From assembly GCF_000154705.2 (NCBI RefSeq), contig NZ_CM002917.1:2126461-2190460 (forward strand): DNA of 64,000 bases. Direction: 5' to 3'. Positions within the stretch are counted from its first letter, which is position 1. Every line of letters starts with the position of its first letter. The stretch is from Hoeflea phototrophica DFL-43. Lineage in GTDB: Bacteria; Pseudomonadota; Alphaproteobacteria; Rhizobiales; Rhizobiaceae. Position numbers and translations under genes: made by a program. Below are positions 21,636-37,854 of the stretch, piece after piece. The notes below the pieces were generated by a model. The model saw only the letters and a program-made list of their open reading frames with translations. It was not told where the DNA came from and did no database searches.

Positions 21636-22097
21636 TCAGGGCTGGTCAGATTCAAGGTGCCGGATCAGCGCGCGCAACGTATCCTTGATCTCGGCGCCTT
21701 CATTGCCCTGGAATGATGTGAGCAGTTCCAATTCATGGGTCTTCGCATCCGCAACCAGTTCGTCTGCGAGTGCGCGCCCCTCCTTCGTCAGGAAAACCCG
21801 GACGCGCCGGCCGTCTTTTGGATCGCTGCGGCGTGTGACAAGGCCACGGGCGTCCATCTGTATGATTATCTTTGTCAGTCTTGACTGTTCGATCATTGCG
21901 TATCGCGCCAACTCAGTGACCATTGAGCCATCGGTATCCGTCAGGCATGCCAAAACACGCCACTCTGGCACGCGCAGGCCGCGTTTGCGCACATGGCTGT
22001 GAAAGCGCGCACTTGCCGCCTCGCTTGCCGCTGCCAGCAGATAGAGCAGGTAGTTGGGAACAAAGGGGGACTTGGGGGTGTCGATTGTGTTGCTCAT
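21636..22097 (-). CDS. MarR-family transcriptional regulator
   Basis: A 153-residue winged-helix regulator. GSMVTELARYAMIEQSRLTKIIIQMDARGLVTRRSDPKDGRR contains the recognition helix and the D-x-R-D/G-x-R wing of MarR proteins. It is divergent from the Rieske oxygenase operon and upstream of the TRAP operon, with a shared AT-rich motif in both gaps. The likely role is derepression of uptake and catabolism by an aromatic-type acid or its CoA thioester. Confidence 0.92.
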   Translation of the reverse strand: MSNTIDTPKSPFVPNYLLYLLAAASEAASARFHSHVRKRGLRVPEWRVLACLTDTDGSMVTELARYAMIEQSRLTKIIIQMDARGLVTRRSDPKDGRRVRVFLTKEGRALADELVADAKTHELELLTSFQGNEGAEIKDTLRALIRHLESDQP

Positions 22098-22215: not shown

Positions 22216-23175
22216 TTGGTTGAGCCGATTAAATTGAAAGTCGCATCAGCGCGCATGGTGACCGATGCAGTTCGTGAGCTGGTGTTCGTTCCCGGCGATG
22301 GCGACAGGCTTGCTGGTTACACGCCCGGCGCTCACGTCAAGTTGCAGTTACCGGTCGGCGAACGATCATATTCCCTCATTGATTTCGAGCCTGTGAGCGA
22401 AAATGCCGGCATAGGCCGGTATCGTTTCGCAGTTCAGCTCGAGGCACAGAGCGCTGGCGGATCCCGGTTCATGCACGAACTCGCGTCCGGCGACGAGGTT
22501 GCGGTTTCTCCGCCCGGCAATGATTTTCCATTGCAGCTCAACAAGCCGGCTCTGCTGATTGCGGGCGGCATCGGAATTAATCCGTTGATCAGCATGGCAA
22601 CCGCGCTCAAGCATGAGGGCACCCCGTTCCGCTTCCACTATGCCGGACGGACCAGGGCTAAGATGGCCTATCGCGACGAATTGGAACAGGCGTTTGGCGG
22701 TGAGCTGACCCTGCATTTCGACGATCAGCCTGAAACCGCATTGAACATTGCCGGTCTGGCGGCGTCGGTTGATGCAGACGAGCATGTTTATGTATGCGGT
22801 CCCAAAGGGATGATCGAAGCGGTTAAATCGGCCATGGGAGCTGCCGGCATCGCCGCGGATCACATTCATTTTGAACTGTTCACCTCGGCAGCCGAAGAGT
22901 CCGGGGACAGGAGTTTCGAGGTCGAGGTTCATGCAACCGGTGAAGTCTTCACGGTGCCACCAGGCAAGACCATCATTGATGTTCTTGAAGCTGGCGGTGT
23001 GGACCTCATTCACGACTGTCTGCGGGGCGATTGCGGGATCTGCAGGACCGACGTCATCGAGGGCGTGCCCGATCATCGCGACGTGGTGCTCAGCGACAGC
23101 GAAAAAGCCGAAGGCAAGGTCATGCAGATTTGCGTGAGCCGAGCGAAATCCGCACGTCTCGTGCTCGATCTATAG
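22216..23175 (+). CDS. Phthalate-dioxygenase-reductase-type oxidoreductase (FMN, NADH, 2Fe-2S)
   Basis: A 319-residue electron-transfer protein with the domain order of VanB/PDR-type reductases. A flavin domain (RSYSLIDFE, about residues 52-60) comes first, then a pyridine-nucleotide domain (AGGIGINPLISM and YVCGPKGMIE) and a C-terminal plant-type ferredoxin (DCLRGDCGIC, with a last Cys in QICVS). It passes NADH electrons to the Rieske oxygenase encoded next, 11 bp downstream. A TTG start at 22216 is used, with AAGGGG upstream; other starts are less good. Confidence 0.92.
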   Translation: MVEPIKLKVASARMVTDAVRELVFVPGDGDRLAGYTPGAHVKLQLPVGERSYSLIDFEPVSENAGIGRYRFAVQLEAQSAGGSRFMHELASGDEVAVSPPGNDFPLQLNKPALLIAGGIGINPLISMATALKHEGTPFRFHYAGRTRAKMAYRDELEQAFGGELTLHFDDQPETALNIAGLAASVDADEHVYVCGPKGMIEAVKSAMGAAGIAADHIHFELFTSAAEESGDRSFEVEVHATGEVFTVPPGKTIIDVLEAGGVDLIHDCLRGDCGICRTDVIEGVPDHRDVVLSDSEKAEGKVMQICVSRAKSARLVLDL

Positions 23176-23186
23176 GAGAGGTATCC

Positions 23187-24530
23187 ATGGGACGCTATGC
23201 AGACAACCCGGCAGCGATCAGAGCGCTGTTTCGCGGCAATGAAGTCCATCGTGACGTCTATGTCGATCAGGAGATCTACCGGCTCGAAATGAGGCACCTG
23301 TTCGCCAATGCCTGGGTGTTTGTCGGCCATGAAAGCCAGACGCCAAACAAGGGTGATTACTTCTCCACGCAGGTGGGCGATCAGCCGGTGATCCAGGTCC
23401 GCCACAGCGACGGCGAGGTGCATGTGCTCCACAACCGCTGCCCGCACAAGGGGACAAAGATCGTCATCGATCGGGCCGGAAACACCGGCAAGTTCTTCCG
23501 CTGTCCCTATCATGCCTGGTCGTTCAAGACCGATGGATGCCTGCTCGCGATTCCGCTGAAAAAGGGCTACGAGAACACCGGCTTTGAAAACAGCGACAGC
23601 AAGAAGGGCATGCGGGCCGTCGGCGAGGTCAGGAACTACCGCGGCTTCATCTTCTGCCGCCTGGCCGAGATCGGTATTTCGTTCGAGGACTTCTTCGGCG
23701 AATCCCTCTCTTCGATCGACAACATGGTCGATCGTTCGCCCGCAGGCCGGCTTGAGGTCGCCGGGCCGCCGCTCAGATACATGCATCATTGCAACTGGAA
23801 AATGCTGGTCGAGAACCAGACCGACACCTGCCATCCGATGGTGGCCCATGAAAGTTCAGCCGGCACAGCGGTGAAGCTCTGGGAAGAGCTCGACATGCCG
23901 GAAGGAACGCCATTGCCGCCGGCGATGGAGATCATCGCACCGTTCATGTCACCCTACGAGTTCTTCGAGAACATGGGGATCCGGACCTGGCCGAACGGAC
24001 ACGGCCACACCGGGGTTCATCACTCGATCCACTCCAATTACTCGACCATTCCGGGCTACATGGACAAGATGGTCGGGGCCTATGGCGAGGAGAAGGCCAA
24101 GGCGATCCTCGATGAGAACCGTCACAACACTGTCTATTTCCCCAACATCATGATCAAGGGGCCGATCCAGCAATTGCGGGTGTTCATCCCATTGGCTGCC
24201 GACAAGACCCTGGTGGAAAGCTACATCTACCGGCTGGTCGACGGCCCCGAGCAACTGACGGCGCGCACCGCGATGTACAACCGAATGATCAATGCGCCCA
24301 CCTCCATTGTCGGCCATGACGATCTGGAAATGTACGAGCGGGCGCAGGAGGGGCTGCAGTCCGACGGGATGGAGTGGGTCAACATCCAGCGCCTCTATGA
24401 GGAAGACGAGGATTTCAGCGAGGAGAAGGTCGAGAACGGCACCACCGAACGGCAGATGCGCAACCAGTTCGATGCCTGGGTCAAGTTCATGACTTGCGAC
24501 ATGGATGATGTCCGGGAGGCGGCGGAATGA
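23187..24530 (+). CDS. Rieske ring-hydroxylating oxygenase, alpha subunit
   Basis: A 447-residue catalytic subunit with an AGGAGAGG site before the ATG. The Rieske [2Fe-2S] ligands are C85-x-H87 and C106-x2-H109. The mononuclear iron site is D213-x2-H216-x4-H221 (DTCHPMVAH). An alpha-plus-beta oxygenase with such a site typically hydroxylates an aromatic or cyclic acid. It overlaps the beta-subunit gene by 4 bp. The substrate cannot be predicted by eye. Confidence 0.93.
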   Translation: MGRYADNPAAIRALFRGNEVHRDVYVDQEIYRLEMRHLFANAWVFVGHESQTPNKGDYFSTQVGDQPVIQVRHSDGEVHVLHNRCPHKGTKIVIDRAGNTGKFFRCPYHAWSFKTDGCLLAIPLKKGYENTGFENSDSKKGMRAVGEVRNYRGFIFCRLAEIGISFEDFFGESLSSIDNMVDRSPAGRLEVAGPPLRYMHHCNWKMLVENQTDTCHPMVAHESSAGTAVKLWEELDMPEGTPLPPAMEIIAPFMSPYEFFENMGIRTWPNGHGHTGVHHSIHSNYSTIPGYMDKMVGAYGEEKAKAILDENRHNTVYFPNIMIKGPIQQLRVFIPLAADKTLVESYIYRLVDGPEQLTARTAMYNRMINAPTSIVGHDDLEMYERAQEGLQSDGMEWVNIQRLYEEDEDFSEEKVENGTTERQMRNQFDAWVKFMTCDMDDVREAAE

Positions 24531-25006
24531 GCGTTTCCAGGGATCAGCTGATCGACTTCATCTATGACGAAGTGCGCATGCTCGATGAAGGGCGTTATGA
24601 CGAATGGCTCGCGCTGTGGCTCAAGGATGGCCATTACTGGATGCCGCTCGACTACAACCAGACCGATCCCGTGAATGTCACCTCGCTGATGTATGAGGAC
24701 CTCTTCATGCTGAAACTTAGGGTCGAACGCCTGAACGGCGCTCGGACCTTCTCGCAAAAGCCCAAGAGCCGGTGTCATCACGTCATCCAGCGCCCCTTCG
24801 TCGACGAAATCGATGTTGCGGGAGGAACCTACGTCACGACCACCTTCATGCATTATGTCGAGACCCGGCTCGACGAGCAGTTCCTGCTGGCGCTGACCGC
24901 GCGGCACGAACTGGCGCTGGTCGACGGCAAGCTCCGGATCGCCAACAAACGGGTCGACATCCTCAATTGCGACGCGGCCTTCCGCAACATCCAGCTGCTA
25001 CCATGA
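24527..25006 (+). CDS. Rieske oxygenase, beta subunit (SnoaL-like fold)
   Basis: A 159-residue small subunit of alpha3beta3 dioxygenases. DFIYDEVRMLDEGRYDEWLALWLKDGHYWMP is the classic beginning and VTTTFMHYVETRLDEQFLLALTARHEL the conserved middle. It has a structural role around the alpha subunit. It overlaps both neighbours by 4 bp (ATGA on each side), which fixes the stoichiometric expression. Confidence 0.92.
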   Translation: MSVSRDQLIDFIYDEVRMLDEGRYDEWLALWLKDGHYWMPLDYNQTDPVNVTSLMYEDLFMLKLRVERLNGARTFSQKPKSRCHHVIQRPFVDEIDVAGGTYVTTTFMHYVETRLDEQFLLALTARHELALVDGKLRIANKRVDILNCDAAFRNIQLLP

Positions 25007-26646
25007 TCGAGCCTGGCACCCAATCGATATGGCAGGCCTTTGCCGCCTCCGCCGGGCTTCTCCCGGATCGCCCGGTTTTCAATGTCCTGAGCGAGACTGC
25101 CGGGATCTACGGCATCGAGCCCGGCAAGACGAGCTACCGGCAGGTGCAGGAGCAGGTCACCGAACTGGCGGCAGCGCTGCAGCAAAAAGGCTATGGGCCC
25201 GGGTTCCGGGTCATGCTGCTTCTGGAGAACCGGCCGCAGTTCTTTGTCTGGCTGCTGGCGCTCAACCGGATCGGCGCCTCGGTGGTTCCGGTCAATCCGG
25301 ATCTGAGGCATTCCGAGCTCAGCTATATGGCTGGTCACTCGGAGCCTTCGCTGATCGTGGCGCTCGCGGACCGTTGCGACGGTCTCGCCGCTGCGGCCCG
25401 GGAAGCCGGGCTTTCGGTTCCGGTAATCGCGCCGGGTGATGTTGTGCCTCAACCCGGAACAGCAGGAGCGGTGGCGCTTCGCGTGGACGCGGGCGGCGAA
25501 CCGCTGGATGGCGAGGAGATGGAAGCGGCGCTGCTCTACACCTCAGGCACCACCGGCAGCCCCAAGGGCTGCATCCTGACCAACACGTATTTTCTGGAGG
25601 CCGGGCGCTGGTATGCCGAGGCAGGAGGGCTATGCGCGCTCAACACTGATGGCGAGCGGATGATCACGCCGCTGCCGGTCTTTCACATGAACGCTATGGC
25701 TTATTCCTTCATGGCGATGGTCGCGGTCGGCGGCTGCCTGACCGTGCTCGACCGGTTTCATCCGTCAAGCTGGTGGAAAAGCGTGCGCGAAAGCGGGGCT
25801 ACCTGCCTGCATTATCTTGGCGTGATGCCGTCGATGCTGATGGGCGCGCCGGAAAGTCGGGAGGACCGGAACCATTCGGTCCGGTTTGGCTTTGGCGCGG
25901 GCGTTGACCCAAAACTGCATGCGAGCTTTGAGAAACGCTTCGGGTTTCCCCTGGTCGAGGCCTGGGCGATGACCGAAACCGGCGCAGGGGCGGTAATATG
26001 CGCAAACCAGCTGCCGCGCCGGGTGGGCGAGAGCTGCCTGGGCAAGCCGGGCCCCGAACTCGATGTGCGGATCGTCGAGGCAGATGGGAAAGCCAGCCAA
26101 AGCGGCCCCGGCGAACTGCTTGTCCGCCAAAAGGCAGAAGATCCACGTCGCGGGTTCTTCGCAGGCTATTTCAAGAACCCTGAAGCCACCGAGGAAGCCT
26201 GGGCCGACGGCTGGTTTCACACCGGTGACATCGTCCGCCGCGAAGCGGACGGCTCGATGTTCTTTGTCGACCGCAAGAAAAATGTCATCCGGCGATCGGG
26301 CGAGAACATCGCCGCAGTCGAAGTGGAATCGGCTCTGATGCGGCACCCGGCGGTCAAGGCTGCCGCCGTGGCCGCGGTTGGCGATCCGGTGCGCGGCGAC
26401 GAGGTATTTGCCTGCCTGAAGGTCGACGGCGAGGCGGGTGAGGCGCTGGCTCTCGAGATTGTCGGTTGGTGCCTGGGGCAGCTCGCCTATTACAAGGCGC
26501 CGGGCTATATCGCCTTTGTCGACGCCCTGCCACTGACGTCGACGCAGAAGATCCAGCGAAGGGAACTAAAGGAGCTGGCGGAGAGACTTGTGCAGGACCC
26601 GGCAACGGTAGACACTCGCACGATGAAGAAGCGGACGGCAGCGTGA
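25003..26646 (+). CDS. AMP-forming acyl-CoA ligase
   Basis: A 547-residue adenylate-forming enzyme. The P-loop-like motif LLYTSGTTGSPKGC, the acyl/AMP motif AWAMTETGAG and the hinge GWFHTGDIVRREADGS with FVDRKKNVIRRSGENIAAVEVE are all present. The late catalytic Lys is in the TSTQKIQRREL segment. It would convert a carboxylate to its CoA thioester. Start at the ATGA overlap with the beta-subunit gene; stop overlaps the thiolase-like gene (GTGA). Confidence 0.92.
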   Translation: MIEPGTQSIWQAFAASAGLLPDRPVFNVLSETAGIYGIEPGKTSYRQVQEQVTELAAALQQKGYGPGFRVMLLLENRPQFFVWLLALNRIGASVVPVNPDLRHSELSYMAGHSEPSLIVALADRCDGLAAAAREAGLSVPVIAPGDVVPQPGTAGAVALRVDAGGEPLDGEEMEAALLYTSGTTGSPKGCILTNTYFLEAGRWYAEAGGLCALNTDGERMITPLPVFHMNAMAYSFMAMVAVGGCLTVLDRFHPSSWWKSVRESGATCLHYLGVMPSMLMGAPESREDRNHSVRFGFGAGVDPKLHASFEKRFGFPLVEAWAMTETGAGAVICANQLPRRVGESCLGKPGPELDVRIVEADGKASQSGPGELLVRQKAEDPRRGFFAGYFKNPEATEEAWADGWFHTGDIVRREADGSMFFVDRKKNVIRRSGENIAAVEVESALMRHPAVKAAAVAAVGDPVRGDEVFACLKVDGEAGEALALEIVGWCLGQLAYYKAPGYIAFVDALPLTSTQKIQRRELKELAERLVQDPATVDTRTMKKRTAA

Positions 26647-27764
26647 AGCGACAGAACTACGATGGCGTGGTCGTAACGGCACCCGTCTCGGTGCCCTATG
26701 TCCGTTACTCTCAGGAAACCGCGCACTGGTGGATCGCACGCGCGCTGAAACAGACGCTTGATGTGGCGGGTCTGTCGCCGCATGAGCTGGATGGATTTTC
26801 GGTGTCCAGCTTCACGCTGTTTCCGGACACACCGGCGGGACTGACCCAGCATCTGGGGCTGAGCCCGCGATGGCTCGACAGCATCCCGATGGGCGGGGCC
26901 AGCGGTGTGGTGGCGCTCAGGCGCGCGGCGCGTGCGGTGCAAGCGGGTGATGTTGACGTGGTGGCCTGTGTCGCGGGTGACGCCAACCGGATCGACAGTT
27001 TCCGCCAGCTGCTGTCCTCGTTCTCGCGCTTTGCCATGGATGCATCCTATCCCTATGGCTCGGGTGGACCGAACGCCAGTTTCGCACTGATCGCCGACGC
27101 CTACATGGCCGAGTATGGCGCGACACGCGAGGATTTCGGCCTCATCGCGGTGGCCCAGCGCGCCAATGCGCTTGCCTATCCCAACGCCATCATGAAGAAG
27201 CCGCTGACGCTGGAGCAATATCTCAACGCCCGGCCGATATCCGAGCCGTTCGGCCTGTTTGATTGCGTCATGCCCTGCGCCGGTGCAGAGGGCTTTCTGG
27301 TGATGCGCGAGGAGGAGGCGCAGAAGCGCGGCCTTGCCTATGCCCGGATCTCGGCCACGATCGAGCGCCACAACGCCTTTCCGGAAGACCCGGTGCAGAT
27401 GCGCGGCGGCTGGGTCATGGATATCGATGAACTTTATGAAATGGCAGGCTCCGGGCCTGAAGCCATCGACCTGTTACAGACCTATGACGATTATCCTGTC
27501 ATTTCGATGATGCAGTTCGAGGATCTGGGCTTTTGCGCCAAGGGCGAGGGCGCGCGGTTTGTCCGCGAACACGACCTGACAATCATCGGCGACTTTCCGC
27601 ACAACACCTCGGGCGGTCAGTTGTCGGCCGGGCAGGCGGGGGCTGCCGGCGGCTATCTCGGGCTGGTCGAGGCGATAAGGCAGGTGACTGGCCAGGCGGG
27701 CGGAACCCAGGTCGCAAGCGCCCGCACCGCCATGGTATCAGGGCTTCGGCATGATCAATTTTGA
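26643..27764 (+). CDS. Thiolase-fold protein without nucleophilic Cys (candidate acyl-CoA retro-aldolase subunit)
   Basis: A 373-residue thiolase-superfamily protein of the SCP2/lipid-transfer type. Where thiolases have the acyl-accepting Cys in a C-x-x-G turn, this protein has M-G84-G85-A86-S87-G88, so the Cys is replaced by Gly. The C-terminal active-site region is NTSGGQLSAGQAG (from about residue 321) instead of GGxxxxGHPxGxSG, so the usual His is gone too. Cys-less thiolase folds paired with DUF35 proteins are known as aldolases in steroid side-chain degradation (Ltp2-type). A DUF35 gene follows. GTG start overlaps the ligase stop. Confidence 0.8.
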   Translation: MKRQNYDGVVVTAPVSVPYVRYSQETAHWWIARALKQTLDVAGLSPHELDGFSVSSFTLFPDTPAGLTQHLGLSPRWLDSIPMGGASGVVALRRAARAVQAGDVDVVACVAGDANRIDSFRQLLSSFSRFAMDASYPYGSGGPNASFALIADAYMAEYGATREDFGLIAVAQRANALAYPNAIMKKPLTLEQYLNARPISEPFGLFDCVMPCAGAEGFLVMREEEAQKRGLAYARISATIERHNAFPEDPVQMRGGWVMDIDELYEMAGSGPEAIDLLQTYDDYPVISMMQFEDLGFCAKGEGARFVREHDLTIIGDFPHNTSGGQLSAGQAGAAGGYLGLVEAIRQVTGQAGGTQVASARTAMVSGLRHDQF

Positions 27765-27810: not shown

Positions 27811-29055
27811 ATGACCGACAAGCTTCTGCCGCCGAAGAAGAAAAACCCGCAACTGCGCCAGATGGTGCCGACCCTGCCGCCGCAAACACGCTCGCGGGCG
27901 GCACTGGGGCTGACGGCTGCGGCCGCGCGCGGAGCGTTCTCGCTGCAGCATTGTGATGAATGCGGCATGGTTCAGTATCCGCCGCGCGATGCGTGTTCTT
28001 CATGTCTCTCGGTGGATCTCGCCTGGCGCGAGACGGTGCGGGATGGAACGGTGATCGCCGAGACCCGCATTCATGCGTCGCCCGATCCCTACTACCGCGA
28101 AAGGCTGCCCTGGCGGTCTGGCCTGGTGCGGTTGCCGGCGGGGCCCACGGTGCTGTGCCATCTGCATGGCGATGTGGGGCGTGGCGACGCGGTTCGCATG
28201 GATCTCAAACTCGACAAGGCCGGGCAGGGCGTGATGATCGCTTTGCCCAGGGAAAGGACACCCGACATGGAGGACGATCCGCAATTGCGCGAGTTCACAG
28301 CGCACCCGAAACACCGGCGGGTGCTGATCACCGACATCAGGTCGCCTGTGACACGACCGCTTATCGACGCACTGCTCACGGCGGGCGCCGCGCAGATATT
28401 CGTCGGAGAATCGGAAAGCTGGCGGCGCGGCTCCGGTCACGCGGCAATCGCTGCACACGACCGGGTCTCGGTGATGTCGCTCGATGTCTCCGATCCGTCT
28501 TCAGTGAAGAAACTTGCTGCCGAAATCGGCGGCAAGACCGACATCCTGATCAACACGGCGCGCCATGTGCGGCCTGGTGGCGTGCTTGGTTCGGACACGG
28601 TGTTCGCGCGTGAGGAGTTCGAGATCAATGCGCTCGGACTGATGCGGCTGGCGCAGGCCTTTGGTCCAGCGATGACCTCGCGCACCGCTGATGGTGTTAA
28701 TTCCGCTGCAGCCCTGGTCAACATCCTGTCGGTTCACGCCTTGTCTGCCGATCCGCAATACGGCGCGTTCTCGGCCAGCCAGGCCGCGGCGCTTTCGATC
28801 AGCCAGACGCTCAGGGCGGAATTTCGTGCGTCGGGTCTGAGAATGATCAATGTCTTTTCCGGTCCGACTGACGATGAATGGCATCAGCCGCTGCCGCCGC
28901 CGAAGGTGGCGCCGAAGGCGTTGGCCAAATCCGTCGTCGACGGCCTCTGCGAAGGGCTCGAGGATGTGTTTTGCGGCGATGTGGCCAAGGATCTTGAAGA
29001 ACGCTGGCGGCGTGACCCGAAGGTTCTGGAACGCGAACTGGCGGGAGGAGGCTGA
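27811..29055 (+). CDS. DUF35 zinc-ribbon/OB-fold protein fused to a degenerate SDR domain
   Basis: A 414-residue fusion. Residues 1-165 are a DUF35 acyl-CoA-associated module: Lys/Pro-rich start, zinc ribbon C48-x2-C51...C62-x2-C65, and an OB-fold. Residues ~168-400 follow the short-chain dehydrogenase fold, but key residues are lost. TGxxxGxG reads TDIRSPVT, NNAG reads NTAR, and the Ser-Tyr-Lys triad is S307, F320, Q324 (FSASQ for YSASK). The SDR part is therefore probably non-catalytic. An in-frame ATG at 27751 would add 20 residues; 27811 is preferred for its GGGGAT site. It is the predicted partner of the thiolase-fold protein. Confidence 0.82.
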   Translation: MTDKLLPPKKKNPQLRQMVPTLPPQTRSRAALGLTAAAARGAFSLQHCDECGMVQYPPRDACSSCLSVDLAWRETVRDGTVIAETRIHASPDPYYRERLPWRSGLVRLPAGPTVLCHLHGDVGRGDAVRMDLKLDKAGQGVMIALPRERTPDMEDDPQLREFTAHPKHRRVLITDIRSPVTRPLIDALLTAGAAQIFVGESESWRRGSGHAAIAAHDRVSVMSLDVSDPSSVKKLAAEIGGKTDILINTARHVRPGGVLGSDTVFAREEFEINALGLMRLAQAFGPAMTSRTADGVNSAAALVNILSVHALSADPQYGAFSASQAAALSISQTLRAEFRASGLRMINVFSGPTDDEWHQPLPPPKVAPKALAKSVVDGLCEGLEDVFCGDVAKDLEERWRRDPKVLERELAGGG

Positions 29056-29852
29056 TGACCAATCCGCTCGAAGGACTTGCCGCGGCGCTGGCCGACGGCT
29101 CGGTCGAAATCGTCGATCTCACCCACACGCTGGATCCGGATTTTCCGGTGATCGTGCTGCCGCCGGAATTCGGCCAGTGCGCCCGGTTCCGGATGGAGGA
29201 AGTCTCGGCCTATGACGGCCGCGGGCCGGCCTGGAAATGGCACAACATCTCGATGAACGAGCACACCGGCACCCATTTCGACGCGCCGATCCACTGGGTG
29301 TCGGGCCGCGATGTCGCCAATGGCGCGGTCGATGAGATCGATCCCTCGGTTTTCGTCGGGCCGGTCGTGGTGATCGATTGTTCCGAGGGCGCTGCGACCG
29401 ACGACGATCTCGAGTTGACGCCGGAGATCATCGAGGCGTGGGAGGCCGAACATGGCCCGGTTCCGGCCGACAGCTGGGTGTTGATGCGAACGGACTGGTC
29501 GAAACGGCGGGGTGCTGAGTATCTGAACATGGCAGAGGACGGGCCGCATTCGCCTGGGCCAACGCCTGGCGCGATTGAGTTGCTGCTTGCCCGCAAGATC
29601 CGCGGCTTTGGCACCGAGACAGTGGGCACCGATGCGGGGCAGGGCGCGCATTACGTGCCGCCCTATCCGGCGCATTTTCTGCTGCATGGGGCCGGGAAAT
29701 ACGGGCTGCAGTGCCTTTCCAATCTCGACCTTCTGCCGCCGACCGGTGCGATGCTGATCGCGCCGCCGCTGAAAATCAAGGGCGGCACCGGCAGCCCGCT
29801 TCGCGTGCTGGCGCTGGTGCCGGTCAGGTCAGTTTCTGGAGAAAACGCATGA
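29055..29852 (+). CDS. Cyclase-family metal-dependent hydrolase (kynurenine formamidase-like fold)
   Basis: A 265-residue protein with the metal signature HTGTHFDAPIHW (H-x-G-T-H-x-D-x-P-x-H). Members hydrolyse amides, lactones or ring C-C/C-O bonds, for example kynurenine formamidase and isatin hydrolase. The family's late elements (GTDAGQG and HFLLHGAGKYGLQ) are present. TGATG overlap with the DUF35 gene and ATGA overlap with the SDR gene place it within the operon. It could open a lactone or hydrated ring made by the oxygenase; the precise reaction is unknown. Confidence 0.85.
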   Translation: MTNPLEGLAAALADGSVEIVDLTHTLDPDFPVIVLPPEFGQCARFRMEEVSAYDGRGPAWKWHNISMNEHTGTHFDAPIHWVSGRDVANGAVDEIDPSVFVGPVVVIDCSEGAATDDDLELTPEIIEAWEAEHGPVPADSWVLMRTDWSKRRGAEYLNMAEDGPHSPGPTPGAIELLLARKIRGFGTETVGTDAGQGAHYVPPYPAHFLLHGAGKYGLQCLSNLDLLPPTGAMLIAPPLKIKGGTGSPLRVLALVPVRSVSGENA

Positions 29853-30574
29853 GCGACTACACCGCCGTCATCACCGGCGCGTCCAAGGGTATCGGCGCGG
29901 ACCTGGCAGGCCAACTGCTGGAACGCGGCTACACGGTGATCAACCTGTCGCGCAATGCGCCCGAGTGGGCGCACGAGCGGCTCGTCAGCCTGGAATGCGA
30001 CCTGCTCGATGCGGAGGCGGTGAAGGCTGCTGCGGAGCGTATCGCCAGCGAGCACGAAGTCACACATTTCGTCCACAATGCCGGACTGATCTGGCCCAAT
30101 CTTGTCGAAGAGGCAAAGCCCGAAGACATCACCGGTCTGGCGCAATTGCATCTGGGGTCGGCGCTGACGCTGCTGCAGGGCTTCCTGCCGTCGATGAAGG
30201 CGAAGAAGTTCGGCCGGGTGATGTTCAACGGGTCCCGCGCGGCGCTGGGCGTGCCGACCCGCACATCCTATTCGGCCACCAAGGCGGGCATGATCGGCAT
30301 GGCGCGGACCTGGGCGCTTGAACTGGCGCCGCATGGCATCACCGTCAATGTGGTGGCGCCGGGTCCGGTCCAGACCGACAATTTCTGGGGCATCATCCCT
30401 AAGGGCAGCGAGCGCGAGGCGGAGCTTGCCAACAGGATCCCGGTCGGACGGCTGGGATCTGTCGAGGATGTCAGCAATGCCTTCCTGTTCTTCTGCGATC
30501 CGGCCAGCAGCTTTGTCACCGGCCAGACGCTTTATGTCTGTGGCGGCACCAGCATCGGCATGATCAATCGGTAG
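29849..30574 (+). CDS. Short-chain dehydrogenase/reductase (canonical)
   Basis: A 241-residue classical SDR with intact TGASKGIG (about residues 9-16), a HNAG motif and catalytic SYSATKAG. Late APGPVQTDNFW and VTGQTLYVCGG segments are typical. As last gene of the oxygenase operon (4-bp overlap with the cyclase gene) it may dehydrogenate the cis-diol from the Rieske reaction or a beta-hydroxyacyl-CoA. It contrasts with the degenerate SDR domain two genes upstream. Confidence 0.9.
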   Translation: MSDYTAVITGASKGIGADLAGQLLERGYTVINLSRNAPEWAHERLVSLECDLLDAEAVKAAAERIASEHEVTHFVHNAGLIWPNLVEEAKPEDITGLAQLHLGSALTLLQGFLPSMKAKKFGRVMFNGSRAALGVPTRTSYSATKAGMIGMARTWALELAPHGITVNVVAPGPVQTDNFWGIIPKGSEREAELANRIPVGRLGSVEDVSNAFLFFCDPASSFVTGQTLYVCGGTSIGMINR

Positions 30575-33751: not shown

Positions 33752-34768
33752 TCACCCCTGGTATTTCGACAGAAGCTGCTTTGCCTCGGCTGCCATGCGC
33801 GCGACAATTTCGGCAGCCGATGGCAGGTCCCTGATCAGCCCTAGTCCTTCGCCGGCCAGCAAGGGCAACTCATCGAAAGCGCCGGTTGCGCCTTGCATGG
33901 GGACCATGTTTGTAAAGCGGTGAAGCGGCACCTGCTGCCCCAAAAGGTCCATTTCTCCGATTTGTGGATGGTGCTCTGCTCCCACTGCGATCTTGTCGAC
34001 CTTGTCGTTCCATTCCGTCACAAGTGGCGTGCGAAGCACGCGGATCGGATTGAAATCCGGATGTTCCCGGCCGAATATGTGGGTCAGATCCGTGTCGGCC
34101 GTGTCGCTTTCAACGATGCGCTGCTTGTACTCTTCGGCAACCGCGGCCTCCCGTGTTGCAACGAACCTTGTGCCGATCCAGGCGCCATCGGCGCCAAGCA
34201 TCAGCGAAGCGGCCAGTCCGCGCCCATCTGCAATGCCGCCAGCAGCCAGCACCACAGCGCGGTCGCCCACTGCATCTACCACTGCAGGTGTCAGGGCGAT
34301 GGTTCCGGCCGTGCCGTAATTGTGGCCACCGGCTTCGGCACCCTGGGCAATGACCAGATCAATGCCATCCGCCACGGCGGCAATCGCGTCCGTGACCGAA
34401 CCGACCTGTTCCCAGACGTCGATGCCCGCGGCATGCATCTGATCGATCCAGGCTTTCTGCGGATGTCCCCAATGAAATGAAACCGCCTTCGGCTTCATTT
34501 GGCACATCAAATCGATATGTGCCTGGGATGTGAAAATGGTGATGAAATTGACATGATAGGCACGTGCAGTGCCGGCATTCATGCCGTTGACCAGCATTTC
34601 GACACCCTCGGGTGGGATGATCCCCACGCCCGCGATGGAACCCATTGCGCCAGCCTCACTCACCGCGATACCCAATGGCGGCGTCATGCCTGCAAAGGCC
34701 ATTCCCGCCTGTACGATTGGGACGGACAGACCATATTTCTCGGTAAGCCTGGTGCTGATTGTTGTCAT
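33752..34768 (-). CDS. Nitronate monooxygenase-family flavoprotein
   Basis: A 338-residue FMN-dependent TIM-barrel protein. VPIVQAGMAFAG, VNFITIFTSQAH, AQGAEAGGHNYG (with the catalytic-region His) and VLAAGGIADGRGLAASLMLGADGAWIGTRF are all family hallmarks. It oxidises alkyl nitronates in characterised members; some homologues have other roles. Start at ATG 34768 with GAGGGA upstream. It forms an operon with the NmrA-like gene and is divergent from an AraC regulator. Confidence 0.9.
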   Translation of the reverse strand: MTTISTRLTEKYGLSVPIVQAGMAFAGMTPPLGIAVSEAGAMGSIAGVGIIPPEGVEMLVNGMNAGTARAYHVNFITIFTSQAHIDLMCQMKPKAVSFHWGHPQKAWIDQMHAAGIDVWEQVGSVTDAIAAVADGIDLVIAQGAEAGGHNYGTAGTIALTPAVVDAVGDRAVVLAAGGIADGRGLAASLMLGADGAWIGTRFVATREAAVAEEYKQRIVESDTADTDLTHIFGREHPDFNPIRVLRTPLVTEWNDKVDKIAVGAEHHPQIGEMDLLGQQVPLHRFTNMVPMQGATGAFDELPLLAGEGLGLIRDLPSAAEIVARMAAEAKQLLSKYQG

Positions 34769-34839
34769 TCCGGTTCCCTCGGATACTGTCTTTTTCGATG
34801 GTGCCAGCGAACGGCATCGGGGTTGCCGTGGCAAGAGAG

Positions 34840-34857
34840 GCACTTGATCGAGAGTGC
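34840..34857. promoter_or_regulatory. Imperfect palindrome in a divergent intergenic region
   Basis: GCACT (34840-34844) and AGTGC (34853-34857) flank a TTGATCGA-like centre between the nitronate monooxygenase and AraC genes. It could be a regulator site; support is only symmetry and position. Confidence 0.3.
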
Positions 34858-34896
34858 ACTTTGACCTTATCTGGACGCAGTCCGGAGAAGATTTGA

Positions 34897-35832
34897 ATGC
34901 ATTTGGAGCGTCCGAAGCAGACCAATGTGCCCGCCAAAGTCTGGTCGACGAAAGGCTTGGCAAAGCCCTTCGGCTACTGGCAGGAGACCGTCAGCCAGGC
35001 CTACACAGCGTTGTCTCCCGAACCTGTCGACAGCAGACCATTTCATGGCCAGATCAAGCTTTTCGAGCTCGCTGACGATGCCAGCATCTCGTCAATCAAG
35101 GCCGGCGCGCAGATTGTTCGGCGGACCCGGCAGGACATACAGCTTCGGGCTTGCGAAGCTGTTTTCATCAATTTTCAGCTGCAGGGACAAAGCACGATTT
35201 CCCAGCGCGGAATCGAGGCCAAAATCGATGCGGGCTCGCTCGTTCTACTCGATGCGACCGAACCTTTTGCAATGAAATTTGACCGCCAGTTCGAGCAAGC
35301 CTGTCTGCATCTTCCGAAATCGGCGCTGGAGGTCAACGGCATCCGGGCCTCGGAATTCGTCGGCCGCGCCGTCACAAGGCAATCGGGCTTCGCCGCGCCG
35401 CTGTTTTCGGCCATCGACAGTCTGACCGCCGGCGTGCCGGCGCCACATGTGCTGCCTGGACTGATGCAGATGCTGTCCTTCGGATTGTCCAATGCGCGCA
35501 GGAATGCCGTTGCAGATCAACATCTTGTAACGGTTCAGAACTTCGTAGTTCACAACATGGGAAACAGCGATCTGTCGCCCGGGCTGACCGCACGGCATTT
35601 CCGGATTTCAACGCGTCACCTGCACAAATTGTTTGCCCGAGACGGAATCACATTCGGCACGTTCTTGCTTGATGCCCGGTTGCAGGCCTGCCGGAAGCGG
35701 ATACTTGCTTCGCCGGACGAGCCCGTCAGCCTTGTCGCCTTCGCCCATGGCTTCCGCAGCCAGAGCCATTTTTCCCGCGCATTCCGCCAGAAGTTCGGAT
35801 GTTCGCCAAATCAACTGCGAAAATCCCATTGA
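34897..35832 (+). CDS. AraC-family transcriptional regulator
   Basis: A 311-residue protein. The N-terminal ~190 residues match the AraC-binding-like domain 2 (FINFQLQGQSTISQRG, then DAGSLVLLDATEPFAM). The C-terminal ~100 residues are a double helix-turn-helix (LTARHFRISTRHLHKLFARDG and VAFAHGFRSQSHFSRAFRQKFGCSP). It is divergent from the nitronate monooxygenase/NmrA pair and likely activates it. Confidence 0.9.
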   Translation: MHLERPKQTNVPAKVWSTKGLAKPFGYWQETVSQAYTALSPEPVDSRPFHGQIKLFELADDASISSIKAGAQIVRRTRQDIQLRACEAVFINFQLQGQSTISQRGIEAKIDAGSLVLLDATEPFAMKFDRQFEQACLHLPKSALEVNGIRASEFVGRAVTRQSGFAAPLFSAIDSLTAGVPAPHVLPGLMQMLSFGLSNARRNAVADQHLVTVQNFVVHNMGNSDLSPGLTARHFRISTRHLHKLFARDGITFGTFLLDARLQACRKRILASPDEPVSLVAFAHGFRSQSHFSRAFRQKFGCSPNQLRKSH

Positions 35833-36502: not shown

Positions 36503-36877
36503 ATGAGACAGAAAACCGGGCCACAGACATCGGCGGCAGAGAAGACGATCAAGGACATTCGCCGCGCGACGCGCAAACACCATTCGTCCGAGGACAAAAT
36601 CCGTATCGTGCTGGAGGGCCTTCGTGGCGAGGACAGCATTGCCACAATCTGCCGCCGCGAAGGCATCGCCGAGAGCCTGTATTATAGCTGGTCGAAGGAA
36701 TTCCTCGAAGCCGGCAAGAAGCGGCTTGCCGGAGACACGGCCCGTCCGGCGACCAGCGACGAGGTGAAGGTGCTACGCCGTGAAAGCCGTGACTTGAAAG
36801 AGGCGCTGGCCGACCTCACCCTGGAAAACCGTCTGCTCAAAAAAAGCATGATCGGGCATGGGGGCGACGAGGAATGA
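36503..36877 (+). CDS. IS3-family transposase OrfA
   Basis: A 124-residue DNA-binding protein. SEDKIRIVLEGLRGEDSIATICRREGIAESLYYSWSKEF is the helix-turn-helix and is followed by a Leu-rich coiled coil (LADLTLENRLLKKSM). AAAGGAAG precedes the ATG at 36503. The stop overlaps the OrfB start (ATGA). A run of seven A (36839-36845) near the end lies where IS3 elements often shift to -1, and the -1 frame is open from it into OrfB. Confidence 0.92.
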   Translation: MRQKTGPQTSAAEKTIKDIRRATRKHHSSEDKIRIVLEGLRGEDSIATICRREGIAESLYYSWSKEFLEAGKKRLAGDTARPATSDEVKVLRRESRDLKEALADLTLENRLLKKSMIGHGGDEE

Positions 36878-37854
36878 GATATCCTGCCACTGAGAAGCTT
36901 GAAATCATCCGGCTCGTCGAAGAATCTCACCTGCCTGCCAAGCAGACGCTCGACAAACTCGGCATTCCCCGGCCGACCTTCTATCGCTGGTACGACCGTT
37001 TTCTGACACACGGCGTCGAAGGCCTGGAAGATCGGCACTCGGCCCCATCGCGGGTGTGGAACCGCATCCCCGACGACATGCGTGATCGCATTGTCACCAT
37101 GGCCCTGGACCATGCAGATCTGTCTCCACGCGAGCTGGCGGTCAAGTTCACCGACACGGAAAGCTATTTCGTGTCAGAGGCTTCGGTCTACCGCCTTCTG
37201 AAGGCCCACGACCTGATCACGTCGCCAGCCTATATAGTCATCAAAGCCAACAACGAGTTCAAGGACAAGACCACGCGACCGAACGAGATGTGGCAAACCG
37301 ACTTCACCTATCTGAAGGTCATTGGCTGGGGATGGTTCTACCTATCGACCATCCTCGACGACTATTCCCGCTACATCATCGCCTGGAAGCTGTGCACCAG
37401 CATGAAGGTCGATGACGTCACAGACACGCTCGACCTGGCGCTGGTCGCATCAGGCTGCGACACGGTAAAGGTCGAACACCGACCGCGCCTGCTGTCGGAT
37501 AATGGCCCATGTTACGTCGCTGCCGATCTCGGTGAATGGCTGGAAAAACACAAGATCGGCCAGGTCCACGGTGCTCCGGGCCATCCGCAGACGCAAGACA
37601 AAATCGAACGCTGGCACCAGACGTTAAAGAACCGCATTCTCCTGGAAAACTACTTCTTCCAAGAAGACCTCGAAGCCCAAATCGCGGCTTTCGTCGAGCA
37701 TTACAACCATCGCCGATACCACGAGAGCCTCGACAATCTCACCCCGGCTGACGTCTACTTCGGGCGAGGCCAGACCATCTTGCTCCAACGCGAAAGGATC
37801 AAACGAAACACCATCAAGCAGCGCCGCTTGAAGCACAATGCAAAAGCGGCTTAA
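36874..37854 (+). CDS. IS3-family transposase OrfB (DDE integrase)
   Basis: A 326-residue catalytic subunit with an N-terminal helix-turn-helix (LDKLGIPRPTFYRWYDRF) and an rve integrase core. The DDE residues are visible in MWQTDFTYLKV (D), LSDNGPCYVA (D) and GHPQTQDKIERWHQ (E). Length is normal and no interruption is visible, so the element may still be functional, alone or as an OrfAB fusion made by frameshifting. Confidence 0.93.
   Translation: MRYPATEKLEIIRLVEESHLPAKQTLDKLGIPRPTFYRWYDRFLTHGVEGLEDRHSAPSRVWNRIPDDMRDRIVTMALDHADLSPRELAVKFTDTESYFVSEASVYRLLKAHDLITSPAYIVIKANNEFKDKTTRPNEMWQTDFTYLKVIGWGWFYLSTILDDYSRYIIAWKLCTSMKVDDVTDTLDLALVASGCDTVKVEHRPRLLSDNGPCYVAADLGEWLEKHKIGQVHGAPGHPQTQDKIERWHQTLKNRILLENYFFQEDLEAQIAAFVEHYNHRRYHESLDNLTPADVYFGRGQTILLQRERIKRNTIKQRRLKHNAKAA

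Follow-up and report, generated by a model that had tools for sequence, protein, structure and literature searches.

IadH of Hoeflea phototrophica, a DUF35 protein fused to an SDR fold with a broken cofactor loop, and its probable part in a redox-neutral step of auxin degradation

Introduction

What purpose does a dehydrogenase fold serve once its cofactor loop has gone? The question is raised by a gene of Hoeflea phototrophica DFL-43 (contig NZ_CM002917.1) lying in a stretch of 64,000 nucleotides, here called the window, to which all coordinates refer. Its product joins a DUF35 module to a short-chain dehydrogenase/reductase (SDR) fold and, judged from sequence and gene order, is IadH of an iadCDEFGHIJ operon for the degradation of the auxin indole-3-acetate (IAA). 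Bacteria bearing iad genes are reported to shield plant roots against an excess of auxin, a use for which they are being engineered. In Variovorax paradoxus CL014, anthranilate falls when iadCDE, F, G, H, I or J is deleted, and loss of F, G, H or I leads to the accumulation of C10H9NO4, which is dioxindole-3-acetate (PMC12633357). The same preprint (Jiang et al. 2025) places IadJ ahead of coenzyme A (CoA) activation, takes IadG for a ketothiolase and IadH for an alcohol dehydrogenase, and lets F, G and H strip the side chain reductively to C8H7NO2. Both assignments were inferred from annotation, and the published removal of the acetyl side chain rests on annotation as well.

Here we propose that IadG and the DUF35 part of IadH probably act together as a redox-neutral retro-aldolase on dioxindole-3-acetyl-CoA, with the SDR arm of IadH serving as a non-catalytic scaffold or positioning module. 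A preliminary description of the gene had recognised the two domains and the altered motifs; the iad operon, the pathway, the Variovorax knock-out phenotype and the likely reaction had escaped it.

Results

A complete DUF35 part and an SDR fold without its motifs

Translation of the iadH frame gives 414 residues without interruption. An alternative in-frame ATG lies upstream at 27751, but the start at 27811 is favoured because relatives are about 415 residues long. The Pfam domains zf-ChsH2, OB_ChsH2_C and adh_short (residues 171-357) all exceed their gathering scores, and the arm has a complete Rossmann SDR fold; the fold search covered this arm and barely probed the DUF35 part. Of the classical SDR features the fold is thus present, whereas TDIRSPVT stands at the TGxxxGxG glycine loop, NTAR replaces NNAG and FSASQ replaces YxxxK, each just as the preliminary description had reported. 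Its further statement that all sites had been lost together holds for the glycine loop, the Tyr and the Lys, but not for the Asn and Ser of the SDR tetrad, which are retained as N273 and S307, and the extent of loss varies by degrees across the family.

Among solved structures the arm comes closest, by sequence and by fold including the C-terminal tail, to 5u4s, an SDR of Burkholderia cenocepacia crystallised with NADP, which is a stand-alone protein, unlike the fused arm of IadH. Its glycine loop and NNAG motif are intact, and a profile alignment sets a Leu against the Tyr column; because of this Leu, the loss of the Tyr may be older than the fusion to DUF35.

The broken loop is common to all sampled members

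A homologue search over 5.8 billion proteins gave 4084 matches, and the best 120 of these (each at an E value of 3.2e-169 or lower, 62-92% identity) all carry the DUF35-SDR fusion with the same four Pfam domains. Together with the query they form a close set of 121 sequences, every one of which has the zinc-ribbon Cys residues 48, 51, 62 and 65, so that the DUF35 part is indeed complete, as first described. In this set the Tyr column holds Phe in 119 sequences, Tyr in 1 and His in 1, the Lys column holds Gln in 96, Asn in 20, Glu in 4 and His in 1, and the first Gly of TGxxxGxG is Asp in 119 and Glu in 2, and never Gly (0/121).

A scan of one genome per GTDB species yielded 122 relatives. The 80 loci retained for the analysis come from Hoeflea, Rhodobacteraceae, Roseibium, Mesorhizobium, Nitratireductor, Bradyrhizobium, Pseudolabrys, Granulosicoccaceae and others. 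IadH was present in 8 of 398 genomes of the phylum, 9 of 150 genomes of a family from another class and 8 of 18 genomes of the genus, each sample including one genome already known to be positive. The wider aligned set (n = 94) comprises the H. phototrophica protein, the 80 loci and 13 sequences from further genomes, and is counted apart from the 120 homologues of the protein search. Left out of it were the loci of genomes G111 and G200 (L094, L096), loci L091-L093, L095, L097-L099 and L101-L104, superseded by longer stretches that cover their places, members of the genus (L139 and the extra copies of G545) and five plasmid loci (L134-L138). Genome G545, of the same genus, has three IadH matches, one of 86% identity and two of 47-50% on one contig.

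The fusion and the four Cys residues recur in all 94 sequences of the wider set. That two genes were joined by an assembly error, or that the frame is a decaying pseudogene, might be suspected from a frame change near the end of the adjoining iadG. With the fusion universal in both sets, the frame intact, and a ratio of non-synonymous to synonymous substitution rates (dN/dS) of 0.11 for the arm, like that of its active neighbours, there is practically no chance of either, and a joining error, which the preliminary description had kept in mind, is excluded by the conservation of the fused frame.

In the wider set the first Gly of the loop is replaced by Asp (71), Asn (22) or Ala (1) and is kept in none, while the Tyr is kept in 33, the Lys in 12, the Asn in 63 and the Ser in 87. 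The kind of homologue that the preliminary description had thought could speak against it, one with both YxxxK and TGxxxGxG intact, does not occur (0/94); three sequences, from two gammaproteobacterial metagenome-assembled genomes (MAGs) and one genome of the family in another class, have the whole N-S-Y-K tetrad, and hence YxxxK, without the loop. Bradyrhizobium copies have retained the Tyr and lost the Lys. The 12 carriers of the Lys, nine from genomes of the family in another class, two from gammaproteobacterial MAGs and one from a Hyphomicrobiales MAG, form a single clade (support 1.0) in a midpoint-rooted FastTree tree; Ser and Asn are also retained there, and 9 of the 12 have Phe for Tyr. 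By parsimony, the Tyr column changes seven times on this tree. As far as sequences can tell, the cofactor loop is broken in every sampled member, the catalytic residues vary around the broken loop, and selection maintains an arm that is no classical reductase, much as the preliminary description had supposed.

With the SDR arm alone (230 residues) as the query, no stand-alone relative was found among the best 120 of 1678 matches; judged by their N-termini, these 120 are pieces or shorter calls of the IadH family. Many database entries (P0123-P0241, L135:9343-10221) are pieces of 255-266 residues whose start Met falls in the linker before the arm. They are probably contig ends or misannotated starts, although an internal start giving a free SDR arm is conceivable because a few of them sit on long contigs.

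IadG has a thiolase fold without the thiolase Cys

When IadG, encoded upstream of IadH, is aligned to the thiolase 7yvy, the Cys of ACASG becomes Gly85, HDAF becomes YDDY and GHP becomes GQA, and all three changes are invariant in the IadG proteins of the 80 loci. Among 12 further loci, YDDY and GQAG occur in 12/12 and GGAS in the 11/11 that cover that segment. The best solved match to IadG, by sequence and by fold, is Sal (9MYR), a DUF35-bound retro-aldolase described by its authors as incapable of thiolysis, which likewise has a Gly for the thiolase Cys, followed by YDCY and GQ. Residues Y281, Q326 and Q331, which correspond to the catalytic Tyr of YD-x-Y/F and the two Gln of Sal, are present in 80/80 IadG proteins. 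The second catalytic residue differs: Asp283 and Gln331 stand in place of Cys304 (Sal) or Tyr344 (Ltp2), again in 80/80. These residues suggest that IadG is a probable retro-aldolase that works like Sal, yet it is not filed under the Sal or Ltp2 family because of this difference. The sequences thus argue against both published assignments, ketothiolase for IadG and alcohol dehydrogenase for IadH.

At positions 27744-27764 the last residues of the H. phototrophica iadG are out of frame when compared with 9/9 relatives read, in which the gene encodes 383-389 residues and usually shares 4 bases with the start of iadH. This may be a real change or a sequencing error, and it makes the activity of this particular IadG uncertain; intact copies are present in the genus.

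The fusion belongs to the iad operon

The gene names in Table 1 were assigned by collinearity and similarity, and the gene order matches the published iadC-D-E-F-G-H-I-J series. The fusion protein was identified as IadH because its neighbours match isatin hydrolase, IadDE and an IAA-binding MarR regulator and stand in the same series. Structure 9o71 is that of IadDE from V. paradoxus CL014, 5NNA/5NNB are isatin hydrolase A of Labrenzia aggregata (reported Km of 16 uM for isatin), and 3cdh, by far ahead of the next regulator match (7kki, 76.4 bits), is a Ruegeria pomeroyi regulator with a reported KD of 0.237 uM for IAA. A steroid side-chain cluster had also been considered and was dropped once the neighbours had been matched to isatin hydrolase and IadDE. 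A PF04199 hydrolase gene follows iadH on the same strand in 80/80 loci, and a thiolase-like gene precedes it in 79/80, the remaining locus (L071) beginning 127 bases before iadH. The same gene series is found on the megaplasmid of Ruegeria pomeroyi DSS-3, and in Pukyongiella the trio of thiolase, DUF35-SDR and hydrolase genes lies beside genes of indolepyruvate ferredoxin oxidoreductase.

The published iadH of CL014 likewise lies between iadG and iadI in a collinear operon (PMC12633357, PMC10374108). Its sequence is represented here by a Variovorax-like locus (L133), whose oxygenase scores 983.3 bits against 9o71 and whose IadH shows the DUF35-SDR architecture again, with TDGKTETG and FSASK; the glycine loop and the Tyr are lost and the Lys is kept, in contrast to FSASQ in H. 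phototrophica. In the passages of the published work that deal with it, the CL014 protein is "annotated as an alcohol dehydrogenase", with mention of neither DUF35 nor a lost SDR site, and in the accessible passages of the open PMC literature no description was found of the DUF35-SDR architecture or of a retro-aldol route from IAA to isatin.

Table 1. Features of the iad region in the window
Feature	Position	Strand	Basis
MarR regulator, IadR-like	21636..22097	-	179.5 bits to 3cdh
iadC: oxygenase reductase	22216..23175	+	Fer2 + NAD_binding_1
iadD: Rieske oxygenase alpha subunit	23187..24530	+	582.8 bits to 9o71
iadE: Rieske oxygenase beta subunit	24527..25006	+	PF00866
iadF: AMP-forming acyl-CoA ligase	25003..26646	+	by eye and position; name after PMC12633357
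iadG: thiolase fold without nucleophilic Cys, probable retro-aldolase	26643..27764	+	alignment, fold match
iadH: DUF35 - pseudo-SDR fusion, 414 aa	27811..29055	+	frame, Pfam, homologue lengths
zinc ribbon of IadH, aa 36-67, Cys 48/51/62/65	27916..28011	+	zf-ChsH2 (Pfam)
OB fold of DUF35, aa 72-131	28024..28203	+	OB_ChsH2_C (Pfam); profile match to ChsH2 DUF35 6ok1_B
SDR-fold arm, aa 168-414, without Gly loop, Tyr, Lys	28312..29052	+	
iadI: isatin hydrolase	29055..29852	+	PF04199; 480 bits to 5nnb
iadJ: SDR with intact TGASKGIG and YSATK	29849..30574	+	Gly, Tyr, Lys in 54/54

In another type of cluster, the trio has no Rieske oxygenase nearby and is followed just downstream by a gene of the Asp/Glu racemase family (L064, L135-L137, and L124 by eye); the racemase family was recognised by PF01177 in L064 and L136 and by annotation in L135-L137. 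A neighbour of the trio in L124 joins a flavin monooxygenase to an old-yellow-enzyme domain (L124:6461-8848; PRK08255, 1053.7 bits against a cut-off of 1078), presumably what one would expect for the use of anthraniloyl-CoA (salicylyl-CoA/anthraniloyl-CoA chemistry). Further along the window, at 33752-35832, are one gene each of the nitronate-monooxygenase and AraC families, which may be part of the same catabolic region because their relatives (69% and 45% identity) lie just upstream of an iadC relative in L023. A transposase-like gene with an rve integrase core occupies 36874-37854.

Discussion

In the reaction that we propose, IadCDE, IadJ and IadF would provide dioxindole-3-acetyl-CoA, a beta-hydroxyacyl-CoA with a tertiary alcohol; deprotonation of this alcohol would break the C-C bond to give isatin and acetyl-CoA, and IadI would then open isatin, yielding isatinate as a step towards anthranilate. 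The sum of the side-chain cleavage, C10H9NO4 = C8H5NO2 + C2H4O2, would be redox-neutral, so that no reductase is needed, and a retro-aldol cut fits the operon in that isatin is the substrate of the next enzyme, IadI.

This differs from the scheme of Jiang et al. (2025), in which IadH is an active alcohol dehydrogenase or reductase and the acetyl side chain is removed reductively to dioxindole. That scheme has on its side the annotation and the compound C8H7NO2 (isatin + 2H, the formula of dioxindole), which accumulates without IadI as well as in a strain with iadCDEFGH and J but without I, and which was read as evidence of a reductive step (PMC12633357); the clade that includes the Variovorax-like member also keeps the Lys, Ser and Asn. 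Yet the first Gly is lost in 94/94 proteins, the Tyr in 61/94 and the Lys in 82/94, the Variovorax-like protein itself has Phe for Tyr and no glycine loop, the adjoining gene encodes a hydrolase whose known substrate is isatin, and the carbon balance requires no reduction. We therefore regard an active IadH as quite improbable, and for the H. phototrophica protein the motif columns reject an active SDR.

Several observations nevertheless weigh against a redox-neutral retro-aldolase with an inert arm. One of them is C8H7NO2 itself, although this compound may arise from isatin through reduction by other cellular enzymes; dioxindole was also found, along with isatin, isatinic acid and anthranilate, in CL14 cultures (Conway 2022). 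The acid of Sal is Cys304, and with Asp283 at this place the acid-base pair of IadG is a different one. In the IadG model (mean predicted local distance difference test (pLDDT) score 77.8), the segments below 50 are 116-143, 207-212 and 324-332, the last of which holds the Gln motif. In the arm, the conservation shift is modest, as 0 segments beat 95% of equal-length windows, and D225 and N248, which we take to be part of the SDR cofactor sites, are retained. Finally, there is the clade that keeps the Lys together with Ser and Asn, with the full tetrad in 3/94; because of these residues, residual nucleotide binding or a redox role may persist within this clade.

The arm, then, would descend from an active SDR that lost its cofactor and catalytic motifs and was retained as a folded module, most likely as an oligomerising scaffold or a positioning arm of an IadG-IadH complex. 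The preliminary description had suggested that the arm perhaps binds an acyl-CoA or the thiolase partner. By analogy with the pairs Sal/Shy and Ltp2/ChsH2, it is the DUF35 part that should hold the thiolase-fold partner instead; our structure models are of single chains.

Could the arm pair with the active SDR IadJ as its inert counterpart, in the manner of BbsC and BbsD, with IadJ, IadG and IadI in one isatin-channelling complex? In favour, an intact iadJ lies close by iadH at this locus, a full-length SDR match lies no more than 10 kb from iadH in 53/80 loci, and the arm conserves helix E, a dimer helix of SDRs, more strongly (0.69 of mean entropy) than IadJ does (0.94). On the other hand, an SDR of at least 45% identity is present in 54 loci, and in 6 of these it is encoded on the opposite strand or more than 4 kb away, and iadJ lies about 22-32 kb away in G111, G200 and G217. 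Two of the eight tested genomes (G265 and G392) have IadH but lack both a close IadJ (best SDR E values 8.5e-25 and 5.7e-27) and an IadD match at E 1e-40 or lower, which weakens the case for IadJ as an obligate partner. In Bbs, the SDR BbsCD, with inactive subunits according to the title, and the thiolase BbsAB do share one pathway (PMC10818641), but the IadJ step precedes CoA activation (PMC12633357). We consider such a pairing unlikely, and a self-standing scaffold or binding role of the arm is preferred because of G265 and G392.

The former NAD pocket might alternatively have come to hold a different ligand and present it to IadG; the ADP part of CoA and the indole ring would be examples. 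There is a precedent in ChsH2, whose inert MaoC domain, fused to DUF35, binds the steroid ring, that is, the bulky part of the substrate; W204, D225, N248, R254 and parts of the loop after beta-6 are, moreover, nearly invariant in the arm. However, the segments that would hold the adenosine are no better conserved than the arm average (glycine loop 1.06 and beta-2 1.15 of mean entropy), and the conservation of the beta-6 loop says little because it is equal in active IadJ (0.65 vs 0.68). A pocket put to such a use seems to us about as unlikely as the IadJ pairing. In the more general form that the arm binds the CoA or ring part or docks IadJ or IadI, passing reactive isatin on inside one complex with the retro-aldolase, the idea deserves somewhat more credit, but it is still tentative; a non-catalytic scaffold or positioning module remains the role that we favour.

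Should IadGH prove to be a retro-aldolase that is redox-neutral and bears a pseudo-SDR arm, the chemistry of the pathway would change, and the automatic name "SDR family oxidoreductase" carried by members of the family would be misleading.

In anaerobic toluene degradation, the thiolase BbsAB and the dehydrogenase BbsCD bring a DUF35/thiolase pair and a pseudoenzyme-bearing SDR into one pathway (PMC10818641); there, however, BbsAB is thiolytic, and separate genes encode the DUF35 protein and the pseudo-SDR, whereas in IadH the two are fused. BbsC was absent from the best 60 of 369 PDB profile matches to IadH, which does not amount to a test of its likeness to the arm. Closer parallels are ChsH2, in which an inert MaoC domain and DUF35 work with ChsH1 and Ltp2, and Shy, in which an active MaoC domain and DUF35 work with Sal (PMC11321319, PMC12329534). 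IadH shows features of such a ChsH2-type aldolase partner, with a four-Cys zinc ribbon, an OB fold and an adjoining thiolase-fold gene. In all three, a second metabolic fold is joined to DUF35, and the partner is a thiolase-fold retro-aldolase without the Cys, probably so in the case of IadH; the fused domain is catalytically inert in ChsH2 and probably also in IadH. They differ in fold and order, as ChsH2 and Shy have a MaoC hydratase fold with DUF35 at the C terminus, whereas IadH has an SDR fold behind an N-terminal DUF35. If our reading is true, the SDR of IadH would be the second inert enzyme fold on DUF35, besides the MaoC of ChsH2, with which it is open to comparison.
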